Part shown: piece after piece, positions 46,109 to 64,000 of the stretch
Layout: every line of letters starts with the position of its first letter
Numbering within the stretch: the stretch's first letter is position 1
From: Paludibacteraceae bacterium
GTDB lineage: Bacteria; Bacteroidota; Bacteroidia; Bacteroidales; Paludibacteraceae
Length of the DNA: 64,000 nt
Reading direction: 5' to 3'
Assembly: GCA_024693065.1 (NCBI GenBank)
Contig: JAILLP010000011.1
Location: forward strand, 62,001 to 126,000
The notes under the pieces: model-generated
Seen by the model: the letters and a program-made list of their open reading frames with translations, nothing else
Database searches by the model: none
What the model was told of the DNA's origin: nothing
Program-made: the position numbers and the translations under genes

Positions 46109-49072
46109 ATGATGAGATTTAAATTTACGATTTTAGCGCTGATATGCTCTTTCGCTGGTGCCTTCATGGCTTCCGCGGCGGACTTGTCGTTCGATAAGGA
46201 GCAATATCAAAAGGCTTTGTGGATGACCGCAAGGTTTTATGGGGCTCAACGTATGGGCGAGGGCGTGAATTGGCTGGTGGCGGACCACGAGCCGAACGGT
46301 GTATCCAATGGTATGTCTTTCTCTGAGAGGAATTTTGTCAAGGGGAAATCATACTTGAAGGATGCGGATGGTTCTTATGATCTGACGGGTGGCTGGTTCG
46401 ATTGCGGCGATTTTGTCCTCTTTGGTCAGACCTTCTTCTATTCCGCCTATATGCTGGCGTTGGGTTATTCGGAGTTCCCTGAAGGATATGATGATTATTA
46501 TTCTTTTGATTATAATGGATATGTCTCTTCCGGTGATTACACGTGGGAAGGCAAAAAGGGTGTGCCGAATGGTATCCCTGATATCTTGGACGAGGTGAAG
46601 TATGCGACCGATTTTATCTTGAAGGCTGTCCGTGATGATAATACATTCTATTACCAGAAGGGCGATGGCGACGCTGACCATATGGTGTGGTGTACCTCTC
46701 CTGTGAAATCCGCTATGCCAAAGGCGCAAGGAGGTGAGTCGGACGGATCCAGAGAAATCAAAAAGGCGAGTGGTAACGTGACCTCCATGGCTGCTCTCGG
46801 AGGTGCCGCATTGGCTGTGATGTCCCGTGTGTATAAGAAGTTCGACCCGGTTTATGCGCAAAAGTGTCTGGAGAAGGCTAAGGTCGCTTATGACTTCGTT
46901 AATGGGACCTCGAAGGGCAATACGGGTGGGGGAACGTTCTATGGGGCGAAGCCTAAGTATGTGCCGGACATGGTCATCCTCGCGGCGGAGTTATACCGCG
47001 CCACGAATGATTCCAAATACCTGAATAATGCGGAATCGAATTGTATTTGGATGGATGCTCAGAGAGACTATAATTACAATTACACGTTGTGCTATAACAA
47101 CACGGAGGACTTGGCCGCATACCTGATGGCTTCCATCAAGGAATCCTCCTATAGCGAGAAGGCGATGGCCGTGATGGATTTCTATGTGAATTCGATGTAC
47201 AAGCCTTCCTCTGGCTATATCCTGAGAAAACCTGGCCATTATGACGCTCAGTGGGGCTCTCTTCGTTACCCTGCTAACCAAGCCTTCACATATGGCTTGT
47301 ATTCTAAACTGGTGAGTGACAAGGAACTGAATCCTTATTCGTTGGCCACCATCGAATTTATCATGGGTAAGAATTCATCTAACATGTCTTTCATCGTGGG
47401 ATTCGGCAATAAATATCCGGTGATCCCGCATCATCGTAATTTCTTCCGCTATGATGGCAATAATATGAGCATGGTGCCTATACCTGACAAGAATTATAAG
47501 TTCATACAGTTGGGTTTCATGGTGGGCGGTAGTGGCGCTACTTTGGAGTCTGCCTCCTATTCGGAGTCGTTGGACAATTACCAGATATCTGAGGGCGGTA
47601 TCGACTACAATGCGGGTCTGGTATGCGCCTTAGGTTATATCAACTCTGTCGTTAACCCTGTCAATGTCAATAAGTTCGGTCATCCATCTCCAGATCTTGG
47701 CAATGCGATTTCTCTTTGTGGCATGAGGTCTGTTACTTTGGACTCTAAGGTGCCTGCCGACGGAAAGAAGACTTTTACTTGGTATAAGGATGGACAGAAG
47801 GTGGAATCGTCGACTTCGGCTTCTTCTTATCAGGTGTCCGCACCTGGCGAGTATGTCTGCGAGATCGATTCCGCCGGCGAATGGACTACCAGTGGTAGCG
47901 TCGTGGTGATGGCTTCCTTGCCTGAGTTCGAACCTATACCGGACATGGAGCTCTGTAACCCTTCTCAGATAGAAATGAACTTCGAATTGCAGGATGTGCC
48001 GGCATCCTACCAATGGTACAGGAATGGCGAGGCGTTGAAAGGCGCTACTTCCCCTAAGTACCTTATCACGAAGGGTGGCGAGTACGTTTGCGAAATCTCC
48101 GCTTCTAATTGTAAATCGACGGGTGTCTCCTTCAAGGTGACTTCCTTGTTGCCGGAGGCTGAGGATGCCGTTTCTGATGTGAGTGGCAATGTGACCCTGA
48201 CGGTGAAGGGGGATGGAGAGTACGAGTGGTATGATCAGTTGGAGGGCGGTTCGCCGCTTGCCACGGGCTCTTCCTACAAGACTACAATCTCCGCTGACAA
48301 GACCTTCTACGTGCAGGATGCCGGCGCCATGGATATCGTGGTGGGCCCGACCCAGAAGGACTTCACCTCCACGGGTGTGAACTGGGGTAATATCTCCGCT
48401 AACTTCAAGGCCTCCAAGGCATGTAGCATTACAAGTGTCTATGTCCATATCGAAGGCAACCCTTACAACCAAGGCGAGACTACCGTGAAGGCTGAGCTGG
48501 GTGGTGCGAAGAAGGCGACGTTCACTTCCGACCCAATCCAGGTATCCAAGGGTAACCAGTTCGTGAAGGTCACTTTCTCAAACCCAATCGAAATCCCTGC
48601 GGAGGGAGACTATACGTTGACCTTCTCTTCCGGTGCATTCGCCGTCTCCTATTATGAGAACATGAACAAATATTCCTCCTTCGCGCATCAGGGTGAACCG
48701 CTCACGTTCACCAGTGCGGGCGATGGCAAGCAGGGCTTCCCTGGCATCGCTGATTGGAGCGTGACGACAGGCTCGGGATGTGCCCGCGCCGTGGTGTTGG
48801 CTAAGTATGGCAAGACCTCAGGTGTGGATGATGTGGAGAACTCTCTCTGCGCATTCTATCCTAACCCAGTGTCTGATCTCCTGACCGTCAGACTGAATAC
48901 GGTTGTGCCGGCTACTGCTCAACTCTTCGACCTTATGGGAACGGTTGTGGCTGAGAAACAGTTGAACGCTTCTGACATGACGCTGGATCTGCGTTCTTTG
49001 CCTGCGGGCGTCTATGTGGTGCGTGTCATCGCTGGCGATTCGATCTATACGGGAAGAATCGTGAAGGAGTAA
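46109..49072 (+). CDS. GH9 endoglucanase (cellulase) with Ig-like domains and T9SS sorting domain
   Basis: 987 residues: signal peptide (about 1-23), GH9 (alpha/alpha)6 domain (about 25-510), two Ig-like domains (about 555-690), a beta-sandwich segment and a C-terminal T9SS type A sorting domain (about 905-987, FYPNPVSDLLTVRLN ... GVYVVRVIAGD). Conserved GH9 motifs: GGWFDCGD (Asp98, Asp101), PHHR (His441-Arg443) and SEGGIDYNAG (catalytic acid Glu495). Cys replaces Ala in the usual DAGD motif. It hydrolyses cellulose or mixed glucan chains at the cell surface. Biased codon use suggests high expression. A terminator follows. Confidence 0.93.
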   Translation: MMRFKFTILALICSFAGAFMASAADLSFDKEQYQKALWMTARFYGAQRMGEGVNWLVADHEPNGVSNGMSFSERNFVKGKSYLKDADGSYDLTGGWFDCGDFVLFGQTFFYSAYMLALGYSEFPEGYDDYYSFDYNGYVSSGDYTWEGKKGVPNGIPDILDEVKYATDFILKAVRDDNTFYYQKGDGDADHMVWCTSPVKSAMPKAQGGESDGSREIKKASGNVTSMAALGGAALAVMSRVYKKFDPVYAQKCLEKAKVAYDFVNGTSKGNTGGGTFYGAKPKYVPDMVILAAELYRATNDSKYLNNAESNCIWMDAQRDYNYNYTLCYNNTEDLAAYLMASIKESSYSEKAMAVMDFYVNSMYKPSSGYILRKPGHYDAQWGSLRYPANQAFTYGLYSKLVSDKELNPYSLATIEFIMGKNSSNMSFIVGFGNKYPVIPHHRNFFRYDGNNMSMVPIPDKNYKFIQLGFMVGGSGATLESASYSESLDNYQISEGGIDYNAGLVCALGYINSVVNPVNVNKFGHPSPDLGNAISLCGMRSVTLDSKVPADGKKTFTWYKDGQKVESSTSASSYQVSAPGEYVCEIDSAGEWTTSGSVVVMASLPEFEPIPDMELCNPSQIEMNFELQDVPASYQWYRNGEALKGATSPKYLITKGGEYVCEISASNCKSTGVSFKVTSLLPEAEDAVSDVSGNVTLTVKGDGEYEWYDQLEGGSPLATGSSYKTTISADKTFYVQDAGAMDIVVGPTQKDFTSTGVNWGNISANFKASKACSITSVYVHIEGNPYNQGETTVKAELGGAKKATFTSDPIQVSKGNQFVKVTFSNPIEIPAEGDYTLTFSSGAFAVSYYENMNKYSSFAHQGEPLTFTSAGDGKQGFPGIADWSVTTGSGCARAVVLAKYGKTSGVDDVENSLCAFYPNPVSDLLTVRLNTVVPATAQLFDLMGTVVAEKQLNASDMTLDLRSLPAGVYVVRVIAGDSIYTGRIVKE

Positions 49073-52793: not shown

Positions 52794-55130
52794 ATGAAAA
52801 AGTATTTTCGTAGTTGGAAAGCGAGGATTTTTTTCATCCTTTTTGTTTTTTTCGCAGTGCTCTGCCTGCTTCGTTTCCAACTCTTCCCGAGTGATTATTC
52901 CACGGTCGTTTTCACGGAGAAGGGCGAACTGGTGGGGGCTCGTCTGGCGAACGATGGGCAGTGGCGCTTCCCTCCGATGGATACGGTGCCGTATAAGTTG
53001 AAGAAGGCCACGCTGTGCTTCGAGGATAAACATTTCTACCGCCATCCGGGTGTCAATCCGGTCTCCATTTTCCGTGCGTTGAGGCTTAACCTCTCCGCCG
53101 GCAGGGTCGTTTCCGGCGGCAGCACCATCTCCATGCAGGTGATCCGTATGAGTCGCAACCATCGGAAGCGTGTCTTCACCGAGAAGATTATCGAGGCGTT
53201 CGGAGCCGTATGGCTTGAACTGCACTATTCGAAGGAGGAGATCCTCTCCATGTATGTCTCCAATGCGCCGTATGGTGGCAATACGGTGGGCGTTCAGACC
53301 GCCTCGTGGCGTTACTACCAGCGGGCGGGGAAGGATCTATCCTGGGCGGAGGCAGCCCTCTTGGCCGTGTTGCCGAACGCACCTTCCATGATCCATGTGG
53401 AGCGGAACCGTGAGTCGCTGAAACGCAAGCGTGACGCGCTCCTGCGGACGATGTGCGAGCGGGGCGAGTTCGACGAGGAGACGCTTTCCCTTTCGATGGA
53501 TGAGCCATTGCCGGAGCAGGTTTTCTCCTTGCAGGTGATGGCGCCCCATCTGGTGGATCGCATGAACAGGGAAAAACGTGGACAGATTGTACATGTCACG
53601 TTGAATGCCACGTTGCAGAAGAATGTGGAGGAGATCGCTTCCCGCTACAAGAGCATATACTCCCAAAATGGGGTGCAGAACTTATCCGCAATGGTGATGG
53701 AAGTTTCCACGGGCAACGTCCTGTGTTATTGTGGCAACGCTGCCTATGATAACAATGACGACAACCAGGTGGATATGATTCTTGCTTCTCGTAGTACGGG
53801 TAGCATTCTGAAACCTTTTCTCTATTGTGCGATGATTGAGGATGGTCAGGTTACCCCGCATATGTTGGTGCCCGATGTGCCGATTCAGATTGCTGGTTAT
53901 AAACCTCAGAATTTCGATCGGACCTTCGATGGGGCAGTCCCTGCCAACGAGGCTTTGGTTCGCTCTTTGAACATCCCTGCTGTGCTGATGTTGCGTAAGT
54001 ATGGTATACCAATGTTCCAAGATTATCTGTGTCGGGCGGGTATCTCTACGCTCAAATACTCGCCTGATCATTACGGTTTGACGTTGATCCTGGGTGGTGC
54101 GGAGGCTACGCTTTGGGATGTGGCGGGTGTCTATGCATCCATGTCCAGAGTACTGAACCGCTATAACCGTGATTTCTTGTACGACGAGGGCGATATCCAT
54201 GCGCCTCGGATTTGTCGGCAGGATGAGATGCATAAGGTGGTCGATAAACCTGTCTTATTTCATGCAGGGTCTGTTTGGCACACCATGGATGCCATCAAGG
54301 AATTGAACCGACCGAACGTGACCGATTGGCGTATATTCTCCTCTTCCCGCAAGGTTGGTTGGAAGACTGGTACCAGCTTCGGTAATAGGGATGCGTGGGC
54401 GGTGGGCTCCACGCCGGAGTATGTGGTGGGTGTATGGGTTGGTAATGCGGATGGTGAGGGTCGCCCTGATTTGACTGGGGTAGGATATGCTGCCCCGCTG
54501 ATGTTCGCCATATACAATATTTTGCCTAATACAACGTGGTTTGCTGCTCCTCAGAAAGATTTCGTCCCGATGGAACTTTGCCGCCAAAGTGGTTTCCTGC
54601 GAGGAAAAGATTGCCCGCAAGGGGACTCTGTGATGTTATATGCGCCGTGTGCCAAGAGTGAACCTTGTCCATATCATCAGGTGATCCACCTCACCAGTGA
54701 TGAGAAATACAGGGTGTCGGCGAAGTGTATGTCACCTCTGGATATGGTGCATAAGCCTTGGTTTGTCCTACCTCCTACGATCGAAAGTTTCTATCGTATG
54801 CATAATACATCTTATTTGCCGTTGCCCCCTTTCAAACCGGGATGTGAGGACGAATCCTCTTCCGTAATGGAATTCATCTATCCGAAGGAATCCCGGACGC
54901 TGTATATTCCGAAGGAGATGGATGGCAAGAGGGGTGAGGTCATCTTCGAGGTGGCGCATCGCCAAGCGGACGTGACGCTCTATTGGCATTTGGACAACAC
55001 ATATCTTGGCGAAACGAAACGATTCCATCAGAAGGGAATCAGCACCACAGAGGGTGAACATACGATTACCGTGGTGGATGAAGCTGGAAATCAGATGGAA
55101 AGGAAATTCAAGGCGATTGTGACGGAGTGA
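52794..55130 (+). CDS. pbpC: Penicillin-binding protein 1C
   Basis: 778 residues. N-terminal membrane anchor (about 10-27), GT51 transglycosylase domain (about 60-230) with catalytic Glu77 in FEDKHFYRHPG and the SGGSTISMQV motif, transpeptidase domain (about 280-560) with SILKP (Ser340), SLN and KTGTS near 524, and a BiPBP_C domain (about 690-775) at the C-terminus. It polymerises and cross-links peptidoglycan in the periplasm. In many bacteria pbpC is paired with an alpha-2-macroglobulin gene; none lies beside it here. It follows typA closely. Confidence 0.94.
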   Translation: MKKYFRSWKARIFFILFVFFAVLCLLRFQLFPSDYSTVVFTEKGELVGARLANDGQWRFPPMDTVPYKLKKATLCFEDKHFYRHPGVNPVSIFRALRLNLSAGRVVSGGSTISMQVIRMSRNHRKRVFTEKIIEAFGAVWLELHYSKEEILSMYVSNAPYGGNTVGVQTASWRYYQRAGKDLSWAEAALLAVLPNAPSMIHVERNRESLKRKRDALLRTMCERGEFDEETLSLSMDEPLPEQVFSLQVMAPHLVDRMNREKRGQIVHVTLNATLQKNVEEIASRYKSIYSQNGVQNLSAMVMEVSTGNVLCYCGNAAYDNNDDNQVDMILASRSTGSILKPFLYCAMIEDGQVTPHMLVPDVPIQIAGYKPQNFDRTFDGAVPANEALVRSLNIPAVLMLRKYGIPMFQDYLCRAGISTLKYSPDHYGLTLILGGAEATLWDVAGVYASMSRVLNRYNRDFLYDEGDIHAPRICRQDEMHKVVDKPVLFHAGSVWHTMDAIKELNRPNVTDWRIFSSSRKVGWKTGTSFGNRDAWAVGSTPEYVVGVWVGNADGEGRPDLTGVGYAAPLMFAIYNILPNTTWFAAPQKDFVPMELCRQSGFLRGKDCPQGDSVMLYAPCAKSEPCPYHQVIHLTSDEKYRVSAKCMSPLDMVHKPWFVLPPTIESFYRMHNTSYLPLPPFKPGCEDESSSVMEFIYPKESRTLYIPKEMDGKRGEVIFEVAHRQADVTLYWHLDNTYLGETKRFHQKGISTTEGEHTITVVDEAGNQMERKFKAIVTE

Positions 55131-55741: not shown

Positions 55742-56794
55742 ATGGTAGATAAATTTTATTGTATGAGTTCATATCTCGCATTTAGATTTATTGAATGCGA
55801 TGAAAAAGATTTTTATGAAAATCTACATCATAAAAATATAGATTTGTTACCCGATGGAGATAGAATACCGGTCAAGACTGCGGATGAGATAGGATTGGCG
55901 ATAGATAAGCAGATGGCCATGTTTAGTGGGAAAAAACGAGGAATATTGCTTTCGGGGGGGATGGACAGTGCGATAGTAGCTTCATATATGAATGGAGGAG
56001 AAGCGTATACATTTAGATTCTTGGGTGGTGATTTCCAAAAAGAGGAACTTTCTCGTGCAGAGTGTCATGCTAAATATTACAACCTTAATCTTCATTATGT
56101 TGATATCGAATGGGAATCGATTGAGAAACTTGTTGATGATTGTATGAAGTCGAAATGCGCACCGGTTCATTCTATTGAGCCTCAAATACTTAAAGCAGCT
56201 TTGCAGGCAAAGAATGATGGAGTAGAAATCATGTTTGTGGGGGATGGTAGCGATTATATTTTTGGGGGCATGGATCAATTACTTTCGAAAGATTGGAATT
56301 TTGATGATTTTGTTGAAAGATACTATTCTATAAAACCAAGTGAGATTTTGAATGATCCCGTTGATATGACTTATCCATTTGAACCTTTTAGATTACCCAA
56401 TAATAAGATTGATTTCCAAGGTTTCATGGCGGGATTGATGACAAGGGAAAGTTTTAATTCGTATCACAATGCTTTTTCAGTTGCGCATATGCCGTATTAT
56501 GATCCATATGCCCATCTGAAGATGGCAGAAAAGCTTGATTTGAAACGTATTAGAGGTGGTGAGCCTAAGTATCTAATCCGTGAACTTATGTCCAAACGTT
56601 ATCCGGGTATTCCTGTCCCAAATAAAAATCCCATGCCACGTCCTGTCGATTTTTATTTTAAAGATTGGATAGGTCCTACTCGCCCTGAATTTAAAAGAAA
56701 TATTGATATGTCTCGTTATTCGGGTAATCAAAAATGGCAGATGTGGTGCTTGGAACGTTTTTTAAACATGCATGAACCCATTAAAATTGGATAA
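55742..56794 (+). CDS. Asparagine-synthase-like protein, first tandem copy (C-terminal cytidylyltransferase lost)
   Basis: 350 residues, homologous along its whole length to the first 349 residues of the next gene. The ATP-pyrophosphatase core has LSGGMDS near residue 70, GDGSDYIFGG (the Asn-synthase GEGSDE-type motif) and conserved C-terminal KYLIRELMSKRYP. It lacks the N-terminal glutaminase domain of asparagine synthetases, so it would use free ammonia or a partner glutaminase. It ends with a TAA at 56792-56794 created by a 1-nt deletion (GGATAACAACGG versus GGATATACAACGG in the second copy). The cytidylyltransferase part survives only as a remnant downstream. AT-rich codon use differs from the housekeeping genes. 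The substrate is unknown. Confidence 0.7.
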   Translation: MVDKFYCMSSYLAFRFIECDEKDFYENLHHKNIDLLPDGDRIPVKTADEIGLAIDKQMAMFSGKKRGILLSGGMDSAIVASYMNGGEAYTFRFLGGDFQKEELSRAECHAKYYNLNLHYVDIEWESIEKLVDDCMKSKCAPVHSIEPQILKAALQAKNDGVEIMFVGDGSDYIFGGMDQLLSKDWNFDDFVERYYSIKPSEILNDPVDMTYPFEPFRLPNNKIDFQGFMAGLMTRESFNSYHNAFSVAHMPYYDPYAHLKMAEKLDLKRIRGGEPKYLIRELMSKRYPGIPVPNKNPMPRPVDFYFKDWIGPTRPEFKRNIDMSRYSGNQKWQMWCLERFLNMHEPIKIG

Positions 56795-57000
56795 CAACGG
56801 TGAGTATGATTGCATGGTCACTTGAATTTATTGAATAAGGCAAAGTTAATGTGTAATCGTTTAATTGTTGGTGTGCCTGCGGATGACTTGGTTGAGTATA
56901 AGGTGGAAGTTCAGTTATTCCGTTTGAAGAGCGTAAATTCATTGCGGATGCTTTAAAAATTGTTGATGAGGTTGTTGCCCAAGAGGATGTCGCATGTGCT
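56795..57000 (+). pseudogene. Remnant of a cytidylyltransferase domain
   Basis: Matches 58080-58285 of the intact second copy by eye (for example CATTTGAATTTATTGAATAA, GATGACTTGGTTGAGTATAA, CAGTTATTCCGTTTGAAGA) but with a 1-nt deletion near 56794, a deletion of several bases around 56812 that destroys the HIGH motif, and further changes. The similarity stops near 56990, where the sequence passes into a copy of the cluster's upstream flank (TGTGCTATTTGAGTCATT). It is not translatable as a domain. Confidence 0.85.
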
Positions 57001-57029: not shown

Positions 57030-58484
57030 ATGATAGATAAAAGTTTTTGCATGAGTTCATATCTCGCATTTAGATATATTGAATGCGATGAAAAAGATTT
57101 TTATGAAGATTTACATCATAAAAATATAGATTTGTTGCCCGATGAAGATAAGATGCCAGTCAAGACTGCGGATGAGATAGGATTGGCGATAGATAAGCAG
57201 ATATCCATGTTTAAAGGGAAGAAACGAGGAATATTGCTTTCGGGGGGAATGGACAGTGCGATAGTAGCTTCATATATGAACGGAGGAGAAGCGTATACGT
57301 TTAGATTCTTGGGTGGTGATTTCCAAAAAGAAGAGTTGGCGCGAGCTGAATACTATGCAAAATATTACAATCTTAATTTACATTATGTAGATATTACTTG
57401 GGATACGGTTTTAGATTATGTTGATGCATGTATGAAAGCAAAATGTGCTCCTGTCCACTCTATTGAACCTCAGATCTTACAAGCAGCTTTACAGGCAAAA
57501 AATGACGGTGTTGAGGTAATGTTTGTCGGTGAAAGTAGCGACTTGGTATTTGGCGGGATGGACAAACTTTTGTCTAAGGATTGGATGTTTGATGAGTTTA
57601 TGAACCGCTATATGTTCACAGATCCGAACGAAGTTCTCAAAAATCCTGTTGATATGTCATATTTGTTTGAGCGTTATCGCCAAGGCAAAAATATTGATTT
57701 CTTGTCATTTATGGATAATGTGTTTTCAATTGAAAGTTCCAGTTCATATTGGAATGCTTTTGCTATTGCAAATATGCCATATTATGACCCATATGCACAC
57801 TTGAAGATGTCAGAACCTCTTGATTTATATAGAGTGCGTAACGGTGAACCGAAATACCTGATTCGAGAACTTATGGCGAAACGCTATCCGGACATTCCTG
57901 TTCCAGATAAAAATCCTATGCCACGTCCCGTTGACTTTTATTTTAAAGATTGGACGGGTCCTACTCGCCCTGAGTTTAAGAGAAATATTGATATGTCTCG
58001 TTATTCAGGTAATCAAAAATGGCAGATGTGGTGCTTGGAACGTTTTTTGAATATGTGCGAACCCATTAAAATTGGATATACAACGGGCGTGTATGATTTG
58101 TTCCATATTGGTCATTTGAATTTATTGAATAAAGCAAAATCAATGTGTGACTATTTAATTGTAGGAGTGTCTACAGATGATTTGGTTGAGTATAAAGGGA
58201 AACGCTCAGTTATTCCGTTTGAAGAACGAAAATCCATCGTGGGAGCTTTAAAATGCGTTGATGAAGTTGTTACCCAGGAGAATATGAATAAGTTGGAAGC
58301 TTGGCATAAATATGGGTTTAATGTGATGTTTGTGGGAGATGATTGGAAGGGAACGGAAAAATGGAACAGGATTGAGGAGGAGATGAAGTCAATTGGTGTT
58401 GAAGTTGTTTATTTCCCATATACAAAGGGTACGTCTTCAACTTTAATTAATGAAACTTTGCGTCGATTGAGAGGAGATAAATGA
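57030..58484 (+). CDS. Fused asparagine-synthase-like / TagD-type cytidylyltransferase
   Basis: 484 residues, two domains. Residues 1-345: ATP-pyrophosphatase of the asparagine-synthase type (LSGGMDS at 70-76, GESSDLVFGG) without a glutaminase domain. Residues 350-484: CTP-transfer domain of the TagD/GCT type, GYTTGVYDLFHIGHLNLL with HIGH at 359-362, GVSTDDLVEYKGKR, RKSIVGALKCVDEVV, GDDWKG and YTKGTSST. The second domain would make a CDP-activated alcohol or amino alcohol (CDP-glycerol, CDP-choline or similar); the first may amidate or adenylate the same substrate. It overlaps the LicD gene by 4 nt, so the CDP compound is probably the LicD donor. I know of no characterised enzyme with this domain order. 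Confidence 0.8.
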   Translation: MIDKSFCMSSYLAFRYIECDEKDFYEDLHHKNIDLLPDEDKMPVKTADEIGLAIDKQISMFKGKKRGILLSGGMDSAIVASYMNGGEAYTFRFLGGDFQKEELARAEYYAKYYNLNLHYVDITWDTVLDYVDACMKAKCAPVHSIEPQILQAALQAKNDGVEVMFVGESSDLVFGGMDKLLSKDWMFDEFMNRYMFTDPNEVLKNPVDMSYLFERYRQGKNIDFLSFMDNVFSIESSSSYWNAFAIANMPYYDPYAHLKMSEPLDLYRVRNGEPKYLIRELMAKRYPDIPVPDKNPMPRPVDFYFKDWTGPTRPEFKRNIDMSRYSGNQKWQMWCLERFLNMCEPIKIGYTTGVYDLFHIGHLNLLNKAKSMCDYLIVGVSTDDLVEYKGKRSVIPFEERKSIVGALKCVDEVVTQENMNKLEAWHKYGFNVMFVGDDWKGTEKWNRIEEEMKSIGVEVVYFPYTKGTSSTLINETLRRLRGDK

Positions 58485-59278
58485 TGATGTGCGAGGACTT
58501 TTCTATGTATAACGGAGATGGTACGCAGTTGCGTAAGGCTCAATTAGTGATGTTAGAAATACTAAAACAGGTCGATCTTGTGTGCAAAAAGCATAAAATC
58601 GATTATTTGTTGGATGGAGGCACTTGTTTGGGGGCCGTTCGTCATGGAGGGTTTATTCCGTGGGATGATGATATTGATATTAATGTCAAACGAAGCGATA
58701 TGAAGCGACTGCGCAAAGCACTTCAGTCTGAACTGCCTGACAATCTTTATTTCCAGGATAAGAGTACGGATAAACATTATTGCTGGGAATTTGCAAAAGT
58801 ACGAGACCGTAATACGATTTTTCAGGAAGAAGGGAATGATAGAGAGGAACATCAGGGGATCTTTATTGACATCATACCTGTTGAACCATTTTTTTCTCTG
58901 AAAAGTAAAAAGATGATAGATTATTTTTATGCTCGTTGTTGTAGAGGTATTCGCCATTTTTATACTTACAAAAAGAAGGATATTGTCATCGCATATTTAT
59001 TGTGGCTTCCTTTCCGGACTATTGTCGCTGTCTACAGATTAATGGTCAGAATTTTTAAACCTAAAATGTGGGGACATGTATTTGGTTGGGAGTCATACAA
59101 CTGCGTAGAAGAAAAATATATGTTTCCTGTTAAAAATATGTTGTTTGAAGGTGTTGAAGTGTTAGGACCGAATAATCCTGATGCGTTTTTGTCGGCTCTT
59201 TTTGGTGACTATATGCGTATTCCCCCTAAAGAGGAACGTGTAACGCATGCAATGAAAATTGTTTTTCTTAATGAGTGA
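58481..59278 (+). CDS. LicD-family phosphotransferase
   Basis: 265 residues. The LicD motif LLDGGTCLGAVRHGGFIPWDDDIDI (split) is complete, with the Asp-rich metal site, and the rest follows the family plan (KVRDRNTIF, GIFIDIIPVEPF). LicD proteins, like fukutin and FKRP, move phosphocholine, glycerol phosphate or ribitol phosphate from a CDP donor to a sugar. Three start codons (58481, 58484, 58487) are close together; the first overlaps the stop of the fusion gene, so translation is coupled. It presumably uses the product of the fused cytidylyltransferase. The acceptor is likely a surface polysaccharide built by the next genes. Confidence 0.88.
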   Translation: MMMCEDFSMYNGDGTQLRKAQLVMLEILKQVDLVCKKHKIDYLLDGGTCLGAVRHGGFIPWDDDIDINVKRSDMKRLRKALQSELPDNLYFQDKSTDKHYCWEFAKVRDRNTIFQEEGNDREEHQGIFIDIIPVEPFFSLKSKKMIDYFYARCCRGIRHFYTYKKKDIVIAYLLWLPFRTIVAVYRLMVRIFKPKMWGHVFGWESYNCVEEKYMFPVKNMLFEGVEVLGPNNPDAFLSALFGDYMRIPPKEERVTHAMKIVFLNE

Positions 59279-59281
59279 GTG

Positions 59282-60487
59282 ATGCGTATCCTTTTTATGA
59301 CCGATAAAGATTGTGCGCCCCAAAATGGAGGCATTGAAAGAGTTGTCTCGGCTTTGTCTAACGGCTTTTCTCGGGAGGGAGTGACTTGTTTTTTGTTGTT
59401 TGCAGGTGAACCTCTCATCTCGGGGAAGGGTTCGTTTGAGGAGAAATATCAGTTGGACCGGAATAATGCATATAGTCAGATTCGATCAGTGGTTGAGCAG
59501 GAAAACATCGATGTGCTTTTTAGTCATTTTATGACGAAATCTAATCGTAGTGTGGTCTTGCCTGCGATTAATCGAATCAAGAAGGATTCTCCAAATATTA
59601 AGCATGTTGCTTTGTACCATAGTCAACCAGGCGTGGAGTTGGTGCGGATACCACTTCCTGTTTTTAGCCGTCGTATAATTCATGGTGTACAGATTAAGGC
59701 TAATCTGATTACGTTGGCTAAGCAGTTATTGTTACGTCTCGTTGGGAAGAATGTGTTTAAAAGATTTATTGCTCGAAAATGCCAGATATTGTATGATAGT
59801 GCGGATAAGTTGGTGCTGTTGAATGAGAAATATATTTCTGTGTTTAACAGCTTGGTTGACGGTAGGTGTATGGACAAATATTGTGCGATTGGGAATCCGT
59901 TGCCATTTGATGACGTAACTAGGGTGGACCTTGAAAAGAAGGATAAGGTGTTGCTTGTGGTTTCTCGTATGGAGGAGGAAACGAAGAAATTGTCTAAGGT
60001 TCTGAACTTTTGGAAGGAAGTGGAGCCTCTCTGCATGGACTGGAACCTTGAAATCGTTGGCGATGGACCTGATAAAGTCGTATATGAGTCCATGTCAAGG
60101 TCCATGGGTCTTCGCAGAGTGTCTTTTTGTGGGAAACAGAATCCTCGCCCATATTATGAACGATCTTCTCTTTTTTTAATGACCTCTGATACGGAAGGAT
60201 GGCCTATGGCTTTGTTGGAGACAATGCAATTTGGTTGTGTTCCGATTGTTTTTAATACGTTTTATTCCGCATCCTTGATTGTTGACGATGCTGTCGATGG
60301 TTTGTTGATTCCGCCTGAGGACAATAAGACGTATATGGATAGTATGGTACATTTGATGAAAGATGAAGCTAGGAGAAAGGGAATGGCCTTGTCTGCGATG
60401 CGGAATTGTCAAAGGTTCTCGCAAGAGAGAATCGTGGGGGAATGGATGGATTTATTTAATGACTTGATTAGAAATGAAAACGCCTAA
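59282..60487 (+). CDS. Glycosyltransferase family 4
   Basis: 401 residues from ATG at 59282 (an in-frame GTG one codon earlier is possible). Two Rossmann domains of GT-B fold: N-terminal MRILFMTDKDCAPQNGGIERVVSAL, C-terminal MTSDTEGWPMALLETMQFGCVPIVF, the signature of retaining GT4 enzymes. It transfers a sugar from an activated donor to a growing glycan in the cytoplasm. Specificity is not evident. It starts 3 nt after the LicD gene and overlaps the GT2 gene by 14 nt. Confidence 0.9.
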   Translation: MRILFMTDKDCAPQNGGIERVVSALSNGFSREGVTCFLLFAGEPLISGKGSFEEKYQLDRNNAYSQIRSVVEQENIDVLFSHFMTKSNRSVVLPAINRIKKDSPNIKHVALYHSQPGVELVRIPLPVFSRRIIHGVQIKANLITLAKQLLLRLVGKNVFKRFIARKCQILYDSADKLVLLNEKYISVFNSLVDGRCMDKYCAIGNPLPFDDVTRVDLEKKDKVLLVVSRMEEETKKLSKVLNFWKEVEPLCMDWNLEIVGDGPDKVVYESMSRSMGLRRVSFCGKQNPRPYYERSSLFLMTSDTEGWPMALLETMQFGCVPIVFNTFYSASLIVDDAVDGLLIPPEDNKTYMDSMVHLMKDEARRKGMALSAMRNCQRFSQERIVGEWMDLFNDLIRNENA

Positions 60488-61493
60488 GGTTTCGGTAATA
60501 TTGCCAGTTTACGGTGTTTCCCAATATGTTGAGAAATGTGTCGGTAGTTTATTGTCTCAGACATTGGATGAGATGGAGTTCATTTTCGTAGATGATCATG
60601 GTCCGGATGATAGTATTGAAAAGGTGAAAAATACTATAAAAGGGCATGCGAGAGAGTCTCAGTTTAAGTTTATTAAACCTGAACACAATTTAGGTGCTGG
60701 TATGGCTCGTAATTTTGCTTTCCAATATGTCGAGGGAGAGTATGTCGCTTTCGTTGATAGTGACGATACCATTGAACCAACCATGTTCGAGGAATTGTAT
60801 AATGAGGCTGCCAAGTATGGTAAAACCGATTTGTGTTACTGTCATGCTTTTAAGGATTATGTGGATGGGAAAACCACGGAGATACTGAGAAATCCAATTG
60901 TTGACAACGGGCCTTTCACCCCACAAAACAGAAGCTATTTCTTGCGGAATTACGTTTCCTTGTTTTGGTCGTTCATTTATAAAAAGGATCTGTTAGAGAA
61001 GTATCACATTTTTTATCCCGAGGAGCGATCTGCAGATGATAGTTACTTTGTCTCGTGTTGTTTGATGACTGCAGACAGTATCGCTCATGTGGATAAACCT
61101 TTTTATCATTACCTGATTCGCCCGGGTTCTATTTGCACTACAAAGGTGAGCGATAAGTATAAAAAAAGATTGGCTACATTCGCCAAGTTGATGAGATTCT
61201 CCAAAGAGAGCGGAGTGTATGATACGTATAAGGCGGAAGTGGATTATGTATACATGAAGAAGGGATATGTTTCTTCTGTGCTTAACTTCTTGTACAATTC
61301 TTCCTCCCCGATGGCCCCTGTATTGAGGGAAATTGACATGGAACTGGAATCCCAAATTCCGGATTACACTGATAATGTGTATTTTAAGAGCGATTTTAAA
61401 TTAAGGTGTCTGACTTTCCTGTTCAAGAATTGTCCTTGGCTGACTACCCAGGTAATGGCTCGAATTGTTAGGAGGATGAATTTGGTTGTGTAG
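60474..61493 (+). CDS. Glycosyltransferase family 2
   Basis: 339 residues. GT-A fold: VSVILPVYGVSQYVEKCVGSLLSQT, FIFVDDHGPDDS, GAGMARNFAF, VDSDDTIEP (metal-binding DxD), then RSADDSYFVSC. The C-terminal 110 residues are helical and specific to the subfamily. It probably adds another sugar to the same surface glycan. It overlaps the GT4 gene by 14 nt. No terminator is obvious before the YfhO-type gene, which starts 112 nt later. Confidence 0.9.
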   Translation: MKTPKVSVILPVYGVSQYVEKCVGSLLSQTLDEMEFIFVDDHGPDDSIEKVKNTIKGHARESQFKFIKPEHNLGAGMARNFAFQYVEGEYVAFVDSDDTIEPTMFEELYNEAAKYGKTDLCYCHAFKDYVDGKTTEILRNPIVDNGPFTPQNRSYFLRNYVSLFWSFIYKKDLLEKYHIFYPEERSADDSYFVSCCLMTADSIAHVDKPFYHYLIRPGSICTTKVSDKYKKRLATFAKLMRFSKESGVYDTYKAEVDYVYMKKGYVSSVLNFLYNSSSPMAPVLREIDMELESQIPDYTDNVYFKSDFKLRCLTFLFKNCPWLTTQVMARIVRRMNLVV

Positions 61494-61605: not shown

Positions 61606-64000
61606 ATGGATCAGAAACGTTTTTCGGTGAAAAGTGTGCTGCCGTATGGAGTTGCATTAGTTATTTTTCTCGCACTGACATTGGTGTACGCATCTCCTGT
61701 GCTGATGGGGAAAGTCGTGCAAGCTGGTGATCACGTAAGTTGGCAAGGTATGGTGCATGAGGCGATGATGTCAAAAGATAGTGGAAACCCTACTTGGTGG
61801 ACAGGTTCTATGTTTTCTGGAATGCCTTCTTATCAGATAGGTGGAGGCAGTTACCTCCCTGTGGATTTGACTTTGCCTTTCACGAAGATATCCCGTTTCT
61901 TTTTGGGCAATGAAACACTATTCTATTTGATGGGCTACTTCTTTTGCTTTTTCCTTATGCTTAAGTGTTTCCGTTTGAAAACCAATCTTGCCATCGCTGG
62001 TTCCATCGCGATAACCTTCTCGTCGTATTTTTTTATTATTATTGCGGCGGGACACAATACGAAGGTGGAATCAATCGCATTGCTCGCTCCTGTTGTTGGC
62101 GGATTTTTCCTGATTTTTCGGAAACGTTATCTTTGGGGCGCATTGCTGACGGCTGTCTACGTGATGTTAGGGGTGATGAAGCATCCTCAGATCGCTTACT
62201 ATTATTGTATTATGATTGCGGTTTTAGGATGCGCTGAGTTGTATATCCACATTAAGGAAAAACGATATAAGGACCTGGGATTAGCTTGTTTGGTCTTCTT
62301 GGGCGCTTTTTTAGTGGGTGTAGGAGCTTGGTATCCAAAATACAAAGCGAATATGGAGTATATGTCTGAAACTATGCGTGGCGGGCATTCGGAGTTGGTG
62401 AAGGAAAACGATGAAAAGAACAAGACGGAGGGTCTTGACTTGGATTATGCGACCGCATGGAGTTATGGAGTGGGCGAGACGTTTACCTTATTGGTCCCTG
62501 GATTTATGGGAAATGCGTCTGGCTATGATGTGGGTGTGGACTCTGAAGTCTATAAAAGCCTTGTCGACCATGGTGTTTCTCGCCGTGAAGCAGCTCAATA
62601 TGCTAAGCATATGCCAACTTATTGGGGAGATCAACCGTTTACTGCTGGTCCTGTCTATGTGGGTGCGATTGTGTGCTTCTTGTTTGTCTTGGGCCTCTGC
62701 ATAGTTGAGGGCCCATACAAATGGGCGTTGCTGGCTGCTACGGTGATGTCTATCATGCTCTCTTGGGGCCATAACTTCATGCCTCTTACGGATTTCTTCT
62801 TCAAGTATTTCCCAATGTATAATAAGTTCCGTGCGGTCTCCTCTATATTGGTCGTGGCTGAAGTGACAATGCCTCTTTTGGGTTTCTTGGCTCTGAAGAA
62901 AATAATGGATGGAGAGATGGAAAAGAAAGACCTGCTGAAGAAGATGTGTATTTCAGCGGGCGTGACGGGTGGACTCTGTCTTATTTTCTCTTTGTTGGGT
63001 GGTGCCTTATTTGACTTCTCCTCGGTGAATGATGCGCAAAACTTCAAGAACCTGCCTGATTGGTTGGTCTCTTCGATCATGGATGAGCGTGAGTCTATGT
63101 TGAGGTCGGATGCTTTCCGTTCCTTCTTGTTCATTGCGGCGGCGTTTGCCCTGCTGTGGTTGTATGTGAAGGATAAGCTGAAGGCGAATATCTTCGTGTT
63201 GTTGTTGGGAGTGTTCGTCTTGTTAGACATGTGGCCGATTAATAAACGCTATTTTAACAACGACAATTTTGTTACGGTGAAGGAGGAAAAGAACTATTTT
63301 AAGAAGTTGCCTTGGGAGGAACAATTGCTTTCTTCGGAGACGGATATAAACTATCGTGTCTTGAACTTGACGACAAATACCTTCAACGAATCTCGCACTT
63401 CCTATTATTTCAAGTCGATAGGTGGATATCATGCGGCGAAGTTACGTCGCTATCAGGATTTGATCGAAGAGCATATTTCGAAGTTTAACATGCCTGTGCT
63501 GAATATGTTGAACACAAAATATGTGATTACAAAGGGGCAAGATGGCCAGGCTATTCCCCAACGTAATCCGGATGCGATGGGGAACGCTTGGTTCGTAGAC
63601 TCTATCGTCGTGGCTAACACTCCAAACGAGGAGTCTGATGCCCTTAAAACAATCAATGTGAAGAATACTGCTGTCACTGATGTGAAGTTCTCCGAATTCG
63701 TGAACAGTAATTTGTCTCATGATAGTTCTGCGGTAGTCAAGGAACTGACTTATGCTCCGAACAAGTTGGTGTATGAGTCTCAATCGGAAAAGGATGGTAC
63801 GATTGTATTTTCTGAGGTTTATTATCCATATGGATGGAAGGCCTATATTGATGGTCAGGAAACCCCTCATTTTAGGGTGAACTATCTGTTGAGGGCGTTG
63901 AATGTCCCTTCTGGTAAACATTCCATCGAGTTTATTTTCGATCCAGATAGTATTAAAAATGCTAGACCTATTGCATATATCTGTTTCGCAATATTATATG
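61606..64000 (+). CDS. YfhO-family multi-pass membrane protein (cut by window edge)
   Basis: At least 798 residues are open from ATG at 61606 to the end of the window without a stop. About 12 hydrophobic segments (from MDQKRFSVKSVLPYGVALVIFLAL) with a motif typical of the family near the first extracytoplasmic loop (GDHVSWQGM ... GMPSYQIGG), then a soluble segment (about 560-780) and, at the edge, the start of another membrane segment. YfhO-type proteins, GT-C-like in fold, are implicated in glycosylation of teichoic acids in Gram-positives; here it may modify a glycan on the outer side of the membrane. It is co-directional with the glycosyltransferase genes but separated by 112 nt. Confidence 0.85.
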   Translation, partial: MDQKRFSVKSVLPYGVALVIFLALTLVYASPVLMGKVVQAGDHVSWQGMVHEAMMSKDSGNPTWWTGSMFSGMPSYQIGGGSYLPVDLTLPFTKISRFFLGNETLFYLMGYFFCFFLMLKCFRLKTNLAIAGSIAITFSSYFFIIIAAGHNTKVESIALLAPVVGGFFLIFRKRYLWGALLTAVYVMLGVMKHPQIAYYYCIMIAVLGCAELYIHIKEKRYKDLGLACLVFLGAFLVGVGAWYPKYKANMEYMSETMRGGHSELVKENDEKNKTEGLDLDYATAWSYGVGETFTLLVPGFMGNASGYDVGVDSEVYKSLVDHGVSRREAAQYAKHMPTYWGDQPFTAGPVYVGAIVCFLFVLGLCIVEGPYKWALLAATVMSIMLSWGHNFMPLTDFFFKYFPMYNKFRAVSSILVVAEVTMPLLGFLALKKIMDGEMEKKDLLKKMCISAGVTGGLCLIFSLLGGALFDFSSVNDAQNFKNLPDWLVSSIMDERESMLRSDAFRSFLFIAAAFALLWLYVKDKLKANIFVLLLGVFVLLDMWPINKRYFNNDNFVTVKEEKNYFKKLPWEEQLLSSETDINYRVLNLTTNTFNESRTSYYFKSIGGYHAAKLRRYQDLIEEHISKFNMPVLNMLNTKYVITKGQDGQAIPQRNPDAMGNAWFVDSIVVANTPNEESDALKTINVKNTAVTDVKFSEFVNSNLSHDSSAVVKELTYAPNKLVYESQSEKDGTIVFSEVYYPYGWKAYIDGQETPHFRVNYLLRALNVPSGKHSIEFIFDPDSIKNARPIAYICFAILY

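Follow-up and report, generated by a model that had tools for sequence, protein, structure and literature searches.

Enzymes of the TagD fold make CDP-activated donors for LicD or for PF04464 transferases, as in the TagD–TagF route and in the gct–LicD route, by which glycerol phosphate is placed on teichoic acids and capsules. In Fom1, a cytidylyltransferase of this fold is fused to a partner from the same pathway, a PEP mutase. The ATP-pyrophosphatase fold with the SGG.DS site is found in AsnB, in the beta-lactam and carbapenam synthetases and in the hydroxyamidotransferase TsnB9. The locus described here combines features of all these systems and differs from each of them. It shares the donor-making arrangement with TagD–TagF and gct–LicD, but here the cytidylyltransferase, which carries YTKG instead of RTEG, has an Asn-synthase-like protein fused to it or next to it. 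It shares YTxGxSST with Fom1, but the partner is an Asn synthase relative and not a PEP mutase, and in contrast to AsnB, the fusion lacks the greater part of the N-terminal glutaminase domain.

In Paenibacillus alvei, the adaptor saccharide bears glyceric acid 2-phosphate, for whose attachment the glycerophosphotransferase domain of WsfC has been put forward (PMC2943079). The figure legend of the S-layer glycosylation (slg) clusters lists wsfA, an asparagine synthase homologue, and tagD (PMC2943079); this legend mixes genes of two species, and the assignment of tagD to P. alvei is our reading of it. A role of WsfA in S-layer glycosylation of P. alvei was given in a later paper (PMC3355101). 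The earlier note on this DNA knew of no characterised pathway with such an enzyme fusion. This statement needs a qualifier in view of the slg cluster, in which an asparagine synthase homologue likewise occurs with a CDP-glycerol-type transferase and a glycan containing glyceric acid 2-phosphate, although the transferase here is LicD and the group reported for P. alvei is the acid and not an amide (PMC2943079). WsfA is a putative counterpart of the AsnB-like part, judged by its published description. D-glyceramide 2-phosphate is a constituent of the O-antigen of P. alcalifaciens O22 (PMC6222762). CDP-glycerate, the intermediate proposed below, is the product of Caulobacter CpgD, a CTP:phosphoglycerate cytidylyltransferase, which belongs to another fold family and resembles inositol-1-phosphate cytidylyltransferase rather than TagD; the available text of that paper mentions no Asn-synthase partner (PMC12275187). 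Our literature search, mostly at title level, retrieved neither a described route to an amide donor nor the combination of an AsnB-like enzyme with TagD.

The fusion protein and its operon

The window, i.e. the whole stretch of 64,000 nucleotides analysed here, contains at 57030–58484 on the plus strand a real open reading frame of 484 amino acids, in which an Asn-synthase-like ATP-pyrophosphatase is fused to a TagD-type cytidylyltransferase (Table 1). The earlier note had read the first part as an ATP-pyrophosphatase of the asparagine-synthase type lacking a glutaminase domain and the second as a TagD-type enzyme, and both readings were confirmed. PF00733 (Asn_synthase) is matched at residues 63–187 with 61.5 bits and PF01467 (CTP_transf_like) at residues 350–473 with 64.1 bits, the gathering cut-off being 21 in each case; the HxGH site is HIGH at residues 359–362, and Pfam lists no glutaminase family for the fusion at E up to 0.01. 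In the rows shown for structures of the AsnB family, the alignment to the fusion begins at chain residues 137–178.

Table 1. Features of the locus, in coordinates of the window
Feature	Position	Strand	Remarks
pbpC-like gene	52794..55130	+	left border of the variable site, outside the module; named by similarity, by eye
Second, free-standing Asn-synthase-like protein, type 2	55742..56794	+	PF00733; 350 aa; motif GDGSDYIFGG
Decayed cytidylyltransferase (TagD) remnant behind the type 2 gene	about 56795..56989	+	in-frame stops, gaps; ~195 bases
Asn-synthase-like ATP-pyrophosphatase domain, type 1	57030..58067	+	fusion residues 1–346; motif GESSDLVFGG
TagD-type cytidylyltransferase domain	58068..58484	+	fusion residues 347–484; motifs HIGH, GDDW, YTKGTSST
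LicD-family phosphotransferase	58481..59278	+	PF04991; E 8e-40, 137.7 bits (cut-off 22.6)
GT4 glycosyltransferase	59279..60487	+	PF00534; directly 3' of LicD
GT2 glycosyltransferase	60474..61493	+	PF00535; overlaps the GT4 gene
YfhO-like membrane protein	61606..63999	+	PF09586; right border; extends beyond the window, complete in L038

For the entire fusion protein, AlphaFold2 gave a model with a mean pLDDT of 90.6 and a pTM of 0.88. B. subtilis TagD is the top Foldseek match among solved structures and is also among the best by Z, such fold matches not giving function. The fusion scored below the cut-offs of TIGR01536, the profile of glutamine-hydrolysing asparagine synthase (44.8 versus 267.1 bits), and of TIGR01518, the TagD equivalog (92 versus 165.4 bits). 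RTEG.STT of B. subtilis TagD is replaced by YTKGTSST, and no PEP_mutase domain is listed for the fusion by Pfam. Loss of conserved ATP-site residues from the Asn-synthase domain would, according to the earlier note, speak against its reading. At the positions that we take to be catalytic in AsnB, LSGG, D75, S76, D171, K294 and R299 are kept in 99–100 of 100 aligned Asn-synthase-like domains, and position 168 is Glu in 76 and Asp in 18 of them, counts that are raised by kinship among the sequences.

The stop codon of the fusion and an ATG of licD overlap by four bases in the ATGA at 58481–58484, as had been noted earlier; the exact coupling of the two genes is uncertain, because ATGs at 58484 and 58487 are other possible starts of LicD. 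Elsewhere in the window, a 987-aa protein encoded at 46109–49072 resembles by eye a glycoside hydrolase whose C-terminus forms a sorting tail.

Linkage of the two genes across genomes

A scan of a genome collection yielded 283 relatives, of which the best 80 were kept, a sample that leans to close relatives. L106 was left out on account of a wrongly picked, overlapping reading frame, so that 79 loci were counted. With a TagD limit of 120 bits on either strand, the AsnB-like gene and TagD are fused in 22 and adjacent in 45 of these 79 best-match loci (67 with fusion or adjacency), TagD is two ORFs away in four, and it is absent above 120 bits in eight, one of which, L101, has a partial TagD. 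Adjacency in 45 of the 49 unfused loci with TagD in this sample compares with 9.4 expected and a maximum of 19 in 10,000 shuffles. A same-strand count gave 23 fused and 43 adjacent pairs for the same best-match loci, the difference including L101 and L048, whose TagD lies on the opposite strand. Of the 44 same-strand gaps measured in the count with the 120-bit limit, 37 are at most 20 bases long. A relative of LicD or PF04464 lies within four ORFs in 45 of the 79 loci, none being found by the same test in the other 34, and PF04464 is matched at E up to 1e-5 by 16 of the 237 further neighbour proteins scanned from these best-match loci (249 were listed). YTKG is present in 65 of the 71 cytidylyltransferase homologues of the same loci and missing from six. 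Both orders of fusion exist, namely AsnB–TagD and, in L089 with both Pfam domains, TagD–AsnB; a divergent AsnB–TagD group comes from four small genomes. The possibility raised in the earlier note, that the two domains are unfused and unlinked to LicD in all relatives, is thus not borne out.

Among the 61 genomes of the first survey, the full fusion was found in the genome of the window (G000), in G024 of the same family (72% identity) and in G012 of the same genus (69%), these copies being orthologous. The two genes are separate in G029, with one small ORF between them, and in G017 LicD and TagD are lined up with a truncated AsnB-like ORF, another AsnB-like fragment lying on a second contig. 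A strong match occurs in two of 16 genomes of the genus, and matches beyond E 1e-100 were limited to G000, G372 and G261 among 393 genomes of the order. G372 carries a tandem AsnB-like pair (L182), without TagD in the 19 kb looked at. The titles of the best 80 of the 283 relatives include Bacteroidales, Lachnospiraceae, Selenomonadaceae, Synergistaceae and one Methanomethylophilaceae archaeon, most of them MAGs whose taxonomic labels may err. On L. plantarum plasmids, TagD stands beside the AsnB-like gene in all six records carrying the latter. One of these plasmids has a compact cluster in the order Wzz, kinase, phosphatase, sugar transferase, glycosyltransferases, EpsG, glycosyltransferase, PF04464, TagD, AsnB and flippase, followed by a 66-aa fragment of the amidohydrolase family. 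None of 115 matching phage records covers 80% of the fusion.

Three loci with Synergistales or Synergistaceae titles (L079, L094 and L109) have an Asn-synthase-like gene without TagD located after a TypA/BipA gene, and in L094 and L109 the Glu of the motif is replaced by Ala. In G012, too, TypA is found upstream of the Asn-synthase-like gene, and so it is in the window, with pbpC in between.

The upstream paralogue and other donor modules at the site

The type 2 gene upstream of the fusion and the remnant behind it were not in the earlier note. The protein keeps the catalytic residues listed above except for Glu168, which is Asp. Nucleotide identity to the fusion copy is 84–95% in the first 300 bases and 87–96% in a late stretch, but only 57–81% in the middle, and dN/dS between the two copies is 0.15 overall with a saturated middle segment.

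We distinguished type 1 proteins with GESSDLxFGG, type 2 proteins with G(D/N)(G/A)(S/A)DYxFGG and, as type 3, eight rows that form a distant clade. Each of the 12 AsnB-like pairs seen side by side or fused, including that of the window, joins two different types; the chance figure of 3e-5 for this is post hoc, with types entered by hand and relatedness ignored. L113, which has two non-adjacent type 2 genes in one locus and is outside the 12 pairs, speaks against a strict rule of different types. Two proteins of about 700 aa (L056:2869-4971 and L096:3073-5196) contain two Asn-synthase-like domains of different types, and DUF362 proteins directly follow type 3 genes in L046 (10149-11378), L115 (10136-11365) and L026 (5965-7185), assigned by Pfam in L046 and L026 and by sequence likeness in L115.

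In the tree of residues 150–285, the best split, with a support of 0.95, groups all 18 type 2 rows with ten others, namely the eight type 3 rows, L111 and L120; the last two were missed by the motif pattern, and the motif of L111 is type 2-like. The best-scoring split in the trees of residues 1–90 and 286–342 holds four type 2 rows, and monophyly of the motif types was not found in the full-domain tree. These sequences would be most simply explained by recombination between paralogues in which a central segment for specificity is exchanged or preserved. A recent tandem duplication was dropped as the sole account of the upstream gene in view of the divergent middle and of the grouping by motif type that the central segment shows and the ends do not. 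We likewise consider it improbable that the upstream gene is a decaying recent tandem copy without function. Its ends are 91% and 88% identical in nucleotides to the fusion copy and its cytidylyltransferase part is broken, but its Asn-synthase frame is intact, its middle and its dN/dS do not fit, and its type 2 motif is found in other tandem pairs. Decay of the cytidylyltransferase beside an open Asn-synthase part is expected if one cytidylyltransferase serves both, and the type 2 paralogue probably serves this enzyme with a second specificity for the acid or the amine.

A pbpC match is present in 12 of 16 genomes of the genus, three of these being just 43–44% identical. The site was examined in nine genomes, i.e. 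the window, G001 (L035) and seven others, with G002, G004 and G014 left out. LicD is clear in four of the nine (window, G015, G007 and G001) and weak in G005 (23 bits); none was found in G008, G009, G010 and G011, the contig of G011 ending early. In G015 (L187:10026-14442), the site holds a fusion of a cytidylyltransferase with PEP mutase, Fe-ADH, phosphonopyruvate decarboxylase and LicD, with TIGR02320 (PEP mutase) and TIGR03297 (phosphonopyruvate decarboxylase) above their cut-offs. A matching set, read from translations, lies beside LicD in G007 (L189:9231-13911). The two sets resemble the opening of fosfomycin synthesis and are likely to serve phosphonate (HEP-type) glycan decoration, judged from their sequences. 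G001 (L035:6012-8941) has a third donor module at this site, consisting of a TagD–MocA fusion, an SDR and LicD, and genes reading by eye like acidic-sugar synthesis are found in G008, G010 and G011. Identity of the window's LicD is 44% to that of G015, 38% to G001 and 33% to G007, and the window's GT4 and GT2 are 68% and 55% identical to those of the G015 cassette. Given that other donor modules accompany LicD at the same site, AsnB and TagD most likely make the donor of LicD, and as they sit where complete donor pathways sit, they most likely form a complete pathway starting from a common metabolite.

A proposed amide donor and its alternatives

The earlier note had proposed that the two domains and LicD deliver a cytidylyl-activated small group. 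As a unit of this kind they are well supported by adjacency, by fusions in both orders, by the recurrence of LicD or PF04464 and by the donor modules at the same site. Our preferred reading, to which we give slightly less than an even chance, is that the AsnB-like and TagD-like parts act as one donor-making module for LicD on a route to CDP-glyceramide. The TagD domain would join CTP to the phosphate of a small hydroxy acid, 2-phosphoglycerate being the most probable one, to give CDP-glycerate and PPi, while the AsnB-like domain would adenylate the carboxyl group with ATP and an amine would then make the amide, CDP-glyceramide; cytidylyl transfer and amidation may occur in either order. Free ammonia would be the simplest amine, because a glutaminase domain is absent. 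LicD would place glyceramide phosphate on a sugar within a glycan that the downstream GT4 and GT2 help to build, and elsewhere a TagF-type (PF04464) transferase would act instead of LicD. A CDP-amide is a fairly probable product. That the acid would be phosphoglycerate is more tentative, with somewhat less than an even chance. Against the reading as a whole count the eight loci without TagD above 120 bits, the 34 without a nearby LicD or PF04464 relative, the AsnB-like pair of G372, the clear LicD in no more than four of the nine pbpC sites, the six homologues that lack YTKG, the variation at position 168 and the free acid reported for P. alvei. No enzyme for an unusual precursor lies beside the pair in the window operon or in the L. 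plantarum cluster, which suggests a central metabolite, and by analogy the published glyceric acid chemistry makes CDP-glyceramide the leading guess.

The amide might instead be formed with an amine other than ammonia, in the manner of beta-lactam and carbapenam synthetases and TsnB9, an example being an amino acid or amino alcohol joined to the donor. This is unlikely in our judgement. Still less weight is given to a merely co-inherited pair, in which the donor that LicD receives from TagD is ordinary CDP-glycerol and another target, e.g. a uronic acid of the glycan, is amidated by the AsnB-like protein. The structural similarity to B. subtilis TagD would fit this, as would a related TagD beside a PF04464 transferase in G010, where no AsnB-like profile match was obtained, and the AsnB-like genes of G372 without TagD nearby. 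However, it is specifically AsnB-like and TagD genes that are repeatedly fused or tightly adjacent, the compact L. plantarum cluster has no annotated uronate genes (in an incomplete gene table), and both the change from RTEG to YTKG and the low TIGR01518 score argue against CDP-glycerol. A phosphonate route was considered for the window on account of the YTxGxSST shared with Fom1 and was rejected, the operon having no PEP mutase; PEP_mutase was also not among the 25 families displayed, out of a larger number, in each of two neighbour tallies covering 112 and 125 proteins. A choline or ethanolamine donor was set aside for the window locus but keeps some chance; Pfam lists no kinase for the genes of the operon.

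Beyond the preferred route to CDP-glyceramide, a wider proposal, which we regard as rather unlikely in its full form, is that a CDP-linked amide of a hydroxy acid, CDP-glyceramide or one like it, is a widespread and undescribed donor made by AsnB-like and TagD-like enzymes and attached by LicD or TagF-type transferases, and that the alternative central specificity modules of paired paralogues recombine, allowing two decorations per locus with one cytidylyltransferase. Glyceric acid 2-phosphate and D-glyceramide 2-phosphate are already known in surface glycans, and the module, if correctly interpreted, would name candidate enzymes for the amide donor. It would also offer a signature by which amide phosphates may be predicted in bacteria of the gut and the rumen as well as in lactic-acid bacteria, and would point to a chromosomal site at which relatives carry varied LicD donor modules of the phosphonate, TagD–MocA and amide types.
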